A stretch of DNA of 64,000 bases, taken from Thermorudis peleae (GTDB lineage Bacteria > Chloroflexota > Chloroflexia > Thermomicrobiales > Thermomicrobiaceae). Below the pieces are notes generated by a model. That model saw only the letters and a list, made by a program, of their open reading frames with translations. It did no database searches and was not told the DNA's origin. The DNA lies in contig NZ_JQMP01000003.1 of the NCBI RefSeq assembly GCF_000744775.1, forward strand, positions 806,001 through 870,000, given 5' to 3'. Both the position numbers and the translations under genes were made by a program. Below, in pieces: positions 17,167-50,839 of this stretch. Each line of letters begins with the position of its first letter. Positions within the stretch are counted from its first letter, which is position 1.

Positions 17167-17271
17167 GACGCGCATTCCGAGTGGTGGAGGGAACGGCCCG
17201 ACGAAACCCGGCAACCAGCGCGATCGCGCCAGGTGCCAATGCCGGCGGAAAGTTTCCGCACGATGCGCGTC
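17167..17271 (+). promoter_or_regulatory. SAM-I (S-box) riboswitch upstream of metE
   Basis: The P1 stem is GACGCGCAT (17167-17175) pairing perfectly with ATGCGCGTC (17263-17271). Inside are the SAM-I core elements in order: GGTGGAGGGAACGGCCC at about 17183-17199, GACGAAACCCGGCAACC at about 17200-17215, AGGTGCCAAT at 17231-17240, then GGCGGAAAG. This is the consensus of the S-box aptamer, which binds S-adenosylmethionine and turns off methionine genes. It precedes metE, the expected target. A strong hairpin (17298-17325) follows as expression platform. Confidence 0.93.
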
Positions 17272-32040: not shown

Positions 32041-33240
32041 TTAGCGCGTAACCGTAAGACCAAGGACAGTCCCGAGTTCGCGAAGTGCCTGTTGTGCCTC
32101 ACGAATATCCCGGCCCGCTGCGCTCGCATCCAAAATGGCTTGAGCAAATTCGTCGAGCGTAGTAATTGCTCGTGGTGTATCAAGGTCGTGTTGAAGCGCT
32201 TGGAGCGCACGCTCAGTGAAAGACCTTGAGTCAAGGGGAGCGTGTTGTCCGCTCGGTGCTTCGACTGCTTGCCTCAGCCGGGCGACAAGTGGCTCAAAGC
32301 GAGCTGGTCCGTCATCCTCATAGGCGAATGGAGTACGGTAATGATGACTCAAGAGGTAGAGACGAATAGCATCTCCACTGTGCCGGCGTAGGACATCGCG
32401 AACAAGAACAAGGTTCCCCAGCGATTTGCTCATCTTCTCACCTTGGTATTCGACCATGGCGACATGTACCCAGAACCGGCTAAACGGCTGACTGCCGGTG
32501 TAGCCTTCTGACTGAGCAATCTCGCTTTCATGATGGGGGAAAATCAAGTCATGGCCGCCGCCGTGCACATCGATCTGAGCCCCAAGGTATTTTAGGGCCA
32601 TCGCGCTACATTCAATATGCCAGCCAGGACGTCCTGGTCCCCACGGGCTGTCCCACGTTGGCTCACCAGGCTGCGCAGCCTGCCAGAGAAGAAAATCGAG
32701 CGGGTCGTCTTTCCGTGGATCAGTCGGATCGGCGCCCCGCTCGGCTGAAAGCTTGATCATTGTCTCCCGGTCGTAACAACAGAGGTGGCCATAGTCAGGA
32801 TCACTGGTAACGCGGAAATACACATTGCCCTCACGGACATATGCCATGCCCTGGTCAAGCAACTGTTGAATGATCGCAATCATAAACGGGATTTCTTCAG
32901 TCGCACGGGGAAAGACAGATGGCCAGAGCACATTGAGTCCATTGAGATCTTCTTGAAATTGGCGAATATAGCGATCTCCAAGGCGATCCCAGGGCTCGCC
33001 GACTTCGCGTGCCTTGCGCAGGATGTCATCATCAATGTCCGTCACGTTTTGGACGTAGCGCACACGCCACCCAAGATGCTGGCAGAGACGATTGAGGACG
33101 TCGAAGACGAGGTAGGTCATCGCATGTCCCATGTGGGTTGTATCGTAGGGGGTGACGCCGCAGACGTACATCCGCACCGTTCGTCCATCGGCCGGAGCAA
33201 ACGGTTCAAGTTGACCAGTCAGCGAGTTGTAGAGTTGCAC
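32041..33240 (-). CDS. CysS-family ligase resembling MshC (cysteine ligase)
   Basis: 399 residues of the class I cysteinyl-tRNA synthetase family. The ATP-binding HIGH element reads VCGVTPYDTTHMGHA, and the second motif is GEKMSKSLGNLV. Zinc ligands are in MYVCGVT, WHIECSAMAL and FPHHESEIAQSEG. The TPYDTTHMGHA form and the short C terminus with no anticodon-binding domain after the LDTPRAI segment resemble MshC, the ATP-dependent ligase joining Cys to GlcN-inositol in mycothiol synthesis. Ordinary CysRS is usually about 460 residues. It may equally be the only CysRS of the organism. Start is a GTG at 33240 after GAGGGG. It is divergent from the selenocysteine peroxiredoxin. Confidence 0.85.
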   Translation of the reverse strand: MQLYNSLTGQLEPFAPADGRTVRMYVCGVTPYDTTHMGHAMTYLVFDVLNRLCQHLGWRVRYVQNVTDIDDDILRKAREVGEPWDRLGDRYIRQFQEDLNGLNVLWPSVFPRATEEIPFMIAIIQQLLDQGMAYVREGNVYFRVTSDPDYGHLCCYDRETMIKLSAERGADPTDPRKDDPLDFLLWQAAQPGEPTWDSPWGPGRPGWHIECSAMALKYLGAQIDVHGGGHDLIFPHHESEIAQSEGYTGSQPFSRFWVHVAMVEYQGEKMSKSLGNLVLVRDVLRRHSGDAIRLYLLSHHYRTPFAYEDDGPARFEPLVARLRQAVEAPSGQHAPLDSRSFTERALQALQHDLDTPRAITTLDEFAQAILDASAAGRDIREAQQALRELGTVLGLTVTR

Positions 33241-33390
33241 GGGTGTCCCCTCTTCCTGAGCAAGCCTCTGGCGGCACTTTGGTGTTGTTCTGTAACACAC
33301 AGGCGCGATGCTGGCGCGAATGCCAGCGCCTCGCTATGCTACCACTTGCAGGCATGGAGTGTGCAAGATCAGGAAGGAGTGGAGTGACCG

Positions 33391-33870
33391 ATGGGAGTAC
33401 AAATCGGAGAGCGTGCACCAGACTTTACCTTGCCGAGCACCCTTGGTACCCCCGTCCAACTCTCAGCAGTACTCGGCCAGCATACTGTTGTCCTGGTGTT
33501 TTACCATTTTGCCTTTTCTGGTGGCTGAACGAACGAGATGGTCCAGTTTCGGGACCATTACACTGAATTCCGCGAACTCCAGGCCGAAATTTACGGGATT
33601 AGCGCTGATAGCCATTTTGCTCAGGCTGCCTGGGGGCGTGAGCTTGGTCTGCCGTTCCCGCAACTGAGCGATTGGGAGAAAACTGTCGCCCGCACCTATG
33701 ACATGCTCCTTGATGAGCTCATCGGTTACCGCGAGGTACCTGATCGTGGCGTGGTCATCATTGATCCGCAAGGAATTGTGACCTACCGCGAGCGTGTTGC
33801 GCAGCCACGGGATTTACCCAATCTGCAAGCCGCGTTGGCACACTTGCGCGCGCGGGCCGGGCAGGCATGA
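33391..33870 (+). CDS. Peroxiredoxin with in-frame TGA (probable selenocysteine) at the peroxidatic position
   Basis: A 159-residue AhpC/TSA (AhpE/BCP-like) peroxiredoxin. From the ATG at 33391 (GGAG six bases upstream) the frame reads MGVQIGERAPDFTLP, VVLVFYHFAFSGG, then TGA at 33526-33528, then TNEMVQFRD in the same frame to the stop at 33870. In peroxiredoxins the residue between FSGG and T-x-E-M is the peroxidatic Cys; TGA replaces it as residue 46. The later PDRGVVIIDPQG segment supplies the conserved Arg. No second Cys is present, so it would act as a 1-Cys type enzyme reducing peroxides. A hairpin follows at SECIS distance. A nonsense mutation is the alternative. Confidence 0.85.
33526..33558 (+). 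promoter_or_regulatory. Candidate bacterial SECIS element with its UGA
   Basis: UGA at 33526-33528 is followed by ATGGTCC (33538-33544), the loop AGTTTCG (33545-33551) and GGACCAT (33552-33558), a perfect 7-bp stem with a 7-base loop. The loop starts 16 bases after the UGA and has G as its second base, matching the known spacing and loop rules for bacterial SECIS hairpins recognised by SelB. It lies within the coding region, as expected in bacteria. Confidence 0.72.
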
Positions 33871-49483: not shown

Positions 49484-50839
49484 TCAATGTGTCGCCTCGG
49501 CGTCACCGTTTTGTTCAAGGTAGAGAATGCCTGCGTGGTCATCGTATGCAAAGAGCTCAGCGTATCGCCCCCAGTCGATTGCCGTATCGAGTTGCCGTCG
49601 TGCCTCAACAGGACTGAAGGTCTCTTCGAGCCGCTGAATGAAGGGTTCCTCGGCAAGCCGATGCCGTGGTAAGCTGCGCAGCGCCGTCACAATCTCACGA
49701 ATCAATTCGATGCGGTCGAGTGCTTGACGGCGGAAAATCGCTTTCTTCTCAAGGACGTCCGCTTCAGCAAAGGCTGAGCCGACTGGTGTGAGCGTAACGT
49801 CACCCTCAAGTACTTCGACGAAATCGAGCAGGTCAGCTGCTTCAACAAGTGGCAACAACTCGTCGACCTCAAGCTGTAACTCACGCGCGAGTTCGTAGAG
49901 ATCTTCCCGCCCACCAAGAGCGGCCAGACGTTCAATAAAGCCAGTCAATTCTCCAATGCTCACATGAGGGAGCATCTGATAGGTGGGAACTTCGGCAGTC
50001 TGCAGCACGCGAGCCTGTGGGAGCAATGCGGTAATATCCTCGTGCGGATTCGTCATAATGCGGTAAATGGTGTCGACAAGTTGTGCATGCGCTTCTCCCT
50101 TGGCGAGACGCTCAGCAACGGGAAGACCCGGGAGTTCGACCCGAATTCTCCCCGGGTTTGCGCTAAAGATTAGTAACCGATCGGCCATACTGACCGCCTC
50201 ATCGATGTTGTGGGTGACCATCAGGATTGCCTGCGTGGGGATCTTTCGAGCAAGCCAGAGGTCAAGCAGTTCATGGCGAAGGTTTTCTGCAACGAGGACA
50301 TCCAGCGCTGAAAATGGTTCGTCCATAAAGAGGATCTCTGGTTCTCCGACAAGCGCACGGGCAAACCCGACCCGCTGCTTCATCCCTCCAGAAAGCTCAC
50401 GCGGATACGCGTGCTCGAATCCATCAAGCCCGATAAGATCGATAATCGCCAATGCACGTGCTCGTCGCTCAGCTTCCGGTAAATGTTTGTGGAGGAGCCC
50501 AAGCTCGACGTTTTGGAGGACCGTCAGCCATGGGTAGAGAGCGAACGACTGGAAAACCATTGCCACGTTCGGATTCACACCTTGCAGGGGTTGGCCATGG
50601 AGGAGCACGCGCCCGCTGGACGGCGGGATGAGGCCTGCGAGGATACGCAGCAACGTTGACTTTCCTGACCCGGATGGGCCAAGCAGAGCAACAAATTCTC
50701 CAGCTCGTAAGTCGAGCGTAATACGGTCAAGCACAAGAATACGGTTGCCATCCTGCCCGTAGTACTTCGTCACGTCCTGTGCTCGTAACAGAACAGGGGC
50801 CTCGTTGGTCGGACGGCGAACTGGCACGGTCTGTACCAT
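49484..50839 (-). CDS. NitT/TauT-like ABC transporter ATPase with C-terminal AAA-associated domain
   Basis: 451 residues. The ABC domain (about 15-260) has Walker A LLGPSGSGKST, the signature ELSGGMKQRVGFARAL and Walker B ILFMDEPFSALD, with the H-loop in VTHNIDEA, closest to nitrate/sulfonate/bicarbonate importers. A second domain (about 300-440) after HVSIGELTGFIERLAALGG matches the AAA-associated C-terminal domain found in some of these ATPases, likely regulatory. AAAGGAG precedes the ATG. It pairs with the fused permease encoded 18 bases upstream. The substrate is unknown. Confidence 0.9.
   Translation of the reverse strand: MVQTVPVRRPTNEAPVLLRAQDVTKYYGQDGNRILVLDRITLDLRAGEFVALLGPSGSGKSTLLRILAGLIPPSSGRVLLHGQPLQGVNPNVAMVFQSFALYPWLTVLQNVELGLLHKHLPEAERRARALAIIDLIGLDGFEHAYPRELSGGMKQRVGFARALVGEPEILFMDEPFSALDVLVAENLRHELLDLWLARKIPTQAILMVTHNIDEAVSMADRLLIFSANPGRIRVELPGLPVAERLAKGEAHAQLVDTIYRIMTNPHEDITALLPQARVLQTAEVPTYQMLPHVSIGELTGFIERLAALGGREDLYELARELQLEVDELLPLVEAADLLDFVEVLEGDVTLTPVGSAFAEADVLEKKAIFRRQALDRIELIREIVTALRSLPRHRLAEEPFIQRLEETFSPVEARRQLDTAIDWGRYAELFAYDDHAGILYLEQNGDAEATH

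Follow-up and report, generated by a model that had tools for sequence, protein, structure and literature searches.

The question raised by this locus is whether a TGA codon that interrupts a peroxiredoxin frame, in the 64 kb stretch of DNA analysed here (the window), is a lesion, a genuine stop or a codon for selenocysteine (Sec). We have concluded that the gene almost certainly encodes a one-selenocysteine peroxiredoxin in which the UGA at 33526 is read as Sec. Since Sec-containing peroxiredoxins (TxxU Prx, PF00578) are already known (PMC13188914, PMC1794560, PMC1088965), this reading is unsurprising in itself; what is different here is the loss of an active-site proline and a variant active site.

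A peroxiredoxin frame interrupted by a single TGA

When the internal TGA is read through, the segment 33391-33870 (+ strand) encodes a single AhpC/TSA protein of 159 amino acids (PF00578, E 1.5e-34, residues 5-132), and the frame closes at a second TGA. The internal TGA (33526-33528, + strand) is residue 46, flanked by FAFSGG and TNEMVQFRD, and occupies the peroxidatic position (U46). Translation revealed no other lesion in the frame, in agreement with the original prediction of a complete peroxiredoxin broken only by a TGA at the peroxidatic cysteine. Gene callers would cut this selenoenzyme at residue 45 or start it at residue 50. The ATG at 33391 is preceded by a probable AGGAG-like ribosome-binding region (33374-33390, + strand), and the divergent neighbour is cysS (32041-33300, - strand), encoding a cysteinyl-tRNA synthetase, an arrangement kept at 15/15 orthologous loci. 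The window also carries a SAM riboswitch at 17169-17269 (RF00162, 78 bits).

The predicted fold (pLDDT 88) matched PrxQ/Bcp and AhpE structures in Foldseek with TM values of 0.8-0.9, so that both the PF00578 profile and the fold identify a peroxiredoxin of the AhpC/TSA type. The residues S43, U46 and R119 are present, the arginine (33745-33747, + strand) being invariant in the orthologue alignment, and, from this alignment and general knowledge of the family, we take Sec46, Ser43 and Arg119 to correspond to the peroxiredoxin active site. The nearest solved structures, by sequence as well as by fold, are AhpE of M. tuberculosis and archaeal PrxQ/Bcp (1xxu, 4x0x; 2cx3, 3hjp), but these proteins have Cys in place of Sec, AhpE being of the 1-Cys type, and their aligned sequences lack a His at position -7. 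The window protein contains no Cys residue at all, and therefore lacks the resolving cysteine that characterizes 2-Cys peroxiredoxins, which points to a 1-Sec enzyme with an external reductant; the Thermomicrobium orthologues have one Cys (ISCDS).

The original prediction drew a parallel with PrxU-type peroxiredoxins. The parallel holds for the chemistry, as Sec is the peroxidatic residue in both cases, but not for the family: the protein scored 59.2 bits against the NCBIfam PrxU model (NF040737), whose cut-off is 270, and it has 159 residues compared with the 233 positions of the model. It lies nearest to archaeal PrxQ/Bcp and mycobacterial AhpE, and it is thus an AhpE/PrxQ-like peroxiredoxin without any cysteine, of the 1-Sec type. 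It shares the superfamily with the peroxiredoxin-like UxxC/SelL-related selenoproteins, but these carry their Sec three residues before a Cys and not at the peroxidatic position. One of them, a SelL-related redoxin (LRGFAUPYC; G000:C1:107315-107755, L102), is a second candidate selenoprotein encoded by this genome. A strong hairpin, CUGACGCAGUUGCGUCAG, lies behind its UxxC motif, and the candidate is kept in the relatives L104-L106.

Selenocysteine machinery and SECIS hairpin

The genome (2.93 Mb, 97% complete) was searched for selC, selA, selB and selD, as had been proposed, and all four were found: a tRNA-Sec with the anticodon TCA (UCA in the RNA; 73 bits, cut-off 47) and the genes selA (559 bits), selB (333 bits) and selD (376 bits), each above its curated cut-off. 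The SelD gene (G000:C3:56074-57009, L017) has a Sec-type TGA of its own, in the motif HCAGU. Within the class, selA is present in 23/24 genomes that carry the TGA form of the peroxiredoxin, the lone exception being 78% complete. This co-occurrence is weak evidence, selA being common across the class anyway (123/158 genomes), and we have not retained it as proof.

A hairpin begins shortly after the UGA (33538-33558, + strand), with the arms AUGGUCC and GGACCAU enclosing the 7-nt loop AGUUUCG. The stem of 7 bp was extended by RNAfold to 8 with a G-U pair (33537/33559), giving an energy of -11.6 kcal/mol with all eight pairs. The published bacterial SECIS (bSECIS) model requires a loop of 3-9 nt, a stem of 4-16 bp, a G at the first or second loop base, a UGA distance of 16-37 nt and an MFE <= -7.5 (PMC13188914). 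With a loop of 7 nt, a stem of 7-8 bp, G as the second loop base, 16 bases from the UGA to the loop and -10.6 kcal/mol, the hairpin agrees with this model, and its position and geometry are those originally described. Compared with dinucleotide shuffles, z was -2.0; compared with synonymous versions of the same stretch, p(MFE) was 0.016. By itself, the hairpin is moderately unlikely to arise by chance (p about 0.02-0.03), and it is not decisive alone, since a stem of equal or greater length appeared in 7% of the synonymous versions.

The comparison with orthologues adds to this picture. The arms AUGGUCC/GGACCAU of the window are replaced by UUGUCCC/GGGACAA or CUGUCCC/GGGGCAG in some orthologues, by a bulged stem (CUGGC-CC/GG-U-GCCAG) in others, and by AUGUCCU/AGGACAG, in which the outer pair is broken; in total, 4/7 stem pairs are altered on both sides with pairing kept. 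The loop starts 16-17 nt after the UGA in the orthologues, likewise in many distant Sec homologues, and often contains AGUU. When the fold behind codon 46 was compared with its own synonymous versions, the mean z was -0.89 for Sec homologues (n=68), which are thus the more stable, and -0.05 for Cys homologues (n=61), which are not, with a p of 8e-6 that is optimistic because the sequences are related. The published SECIS model is satisfied by 40% of the Sec but only 3% of the Cys homologues. Among the orthologues, those of the Thermalbibacter group (L023/L024/L028/L029) form the stem only with a bulge, and the loops of L035/L036 fall outside the strict rule.

Conservation of codon 46 and alternative readings of the TGA

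An orthologue was found in 15 genomes of the window's family (the window's own and 14 others), covering five genera and including the heat-loving Thermomicrobium, Thermalbibacter, Sphaerobacter and relatives, and codon 46 is TGA in 15/15. One genus (g4) has no orthologue, although selA is present there. The gene thus adds a selenoenzyme retained across nearly a whole bacterial family. Over 165 homologous loci, some of which represent one gene retrieved twice and five of which, scored as Cys, encode UxxC proteins, codon 46 was TGA in 98, TGC in 46 and TGT in 21, and no other codon was observed. Those five supposed Cys homologues are UxxC selenoproteins, and they were removed from the control set. 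The distinct sequences with T/SxxU or T/SxxC number 132 (71 Sec and 61 Cys), and their best tree requires at least nine Sec/Cys changes. Sec/Cys exchange, which the proposed alignment of homologues was meant to look for, is thus frequent among them, but Sec has become fixed in the family to which the window belongs.

In a phylum-wide set of 80 loci, an in-frame internal stop was found at another position only once. The TAG and TAA marks that also appeared in the phylum survey were compared with the recoding of UAG as Sec (PMC5330540), and this interpretation was rejected: they are normal stops that lie behind the active site, at position 105 or later, in genes where codon 46 is Cys.

That the Cys codon was turned into a stop, in a pseudogene or through a sequencing error, deserves consideration since TGA is one base away from both TGC and TGT. 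Nevertheless, such an accident would hardly account for an identical TGA in 15 species with independent assemblies, isolates included, nor for a frame without other lesions. Moreover, in ten close pairs the dN/dS ratio was 0.03-0.33 before the TGA and 0.02-0.20 after it, and values so far below 1 on either side indicate that both halves are translated and selected. We therefore regard a pseudogene or error as highly improbable, and the original view of the gene as a selenoprotein, which the presence of the decoding machinery also supports, prevails.

The same constraint bears on the idea that the locus yields two products, namely a peptide of 45 aa and a protein of 110 aa translated from the in-frame ATG 33538. 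The upstream half is as constrained as the downstream one, so that a truncated product is excluded and initiation at the internal ATG very unlikely; the 110-aa form would be devoid of the catalytic residue and of the initial part of the fold, and the codon concerned, which lies inside the hairpin stem, is ATG in L022, L033 and L034 alone, being TTG or CTG in the rest. We consider two products just as improbable as a lesion. Least probable of all is a genome-wide reassignment of TGA, e.g., to Trp or Cys, even though it would equally leave the frame open. TGA terminates 15/41 long non-overlapping ORFs in the window, and this gene as well, so it is an ordinary terminator here and the recoding at 33526 is local. 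In a scan of all TGAs in the 64 kb for a two-sided coding signal, 33526 ranked top and was the only clear case. One other TGA, at 49775 (LLKDVRFSKGUADWCERNVTL), gave a weak signal, probably by chance.

Returning to the decoding of UGA 33526 as Sec, we infer from the anatomy of the locus and the complete machinery that the hairpin binds SelB carrying Sec-tRNA(Sec), so that Sec is inserted instead of a stop. The Sec46 selenolate, held by Ser43 and Arg119, would then attack the hydroperoxide and become a selenenic acid. As the protein has no Cys, a thiol or a thioredoxin-like partner would presumably reduce this acid from outside.

Loss of the active-site proline

The known TxxU peroxiredoxins and the window protein have in common the peroxiredoxin fold, the peroxidatic Sec, the T/SxxU motif and a bacterial SECIS behind the UGA. 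However, a 2026 review describes the PxxxTxxU motif as highly conserved in Sec-peroxiredoxins (PMC13188914), whereas the window protein has HxxxSxxU (H39, S43, U46; 33505-33528, + strand) in place of the canonical PxxxT/SxxC. The proline at position -7 is His39 here, and His, Tyr, Phe, Val, Leu, Ala or others in the relatives. By profile and fold, the His39 protein is still within the peroxiredoxin superfamily, as a variant.

Among the distinct sequences, Pro at -7 is present in 61/61 Cys homologues but in only 12/71 Sec homologues; the 59 Sec forms that have lost it carry V, H, L, A, Y, F, I or E. The tree requires about six changes of this residue, with no pair in the opposite direction and three supported independent pairs, too few for a tree-based test to reach significance, and hence the link between Pro loss and Sec is suggestive but unproven. 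It is possible, if somewhat doubtful, that Sec relaxes the constraint on the proline, i.e., that Pro was lost only where Cys became Sec, and that this Chloroflexota branch forms a Pro-less (H/Y/V)xxxT/SxxU class with perhaps another reductant or substrate. A literature search on Pro loss in Sec-peroxiredoxins returned no paper. If the replacement of Cys by Sec does free an otherwise fixed active-site proline, these enzymes would offer a natural test of the benefit of selenium to an enzyme. Other, separate groups of Sec-peroxiredoxins in the class (L044, L050, L051, L077 and L079) retain the proline (PxxxTxxU).
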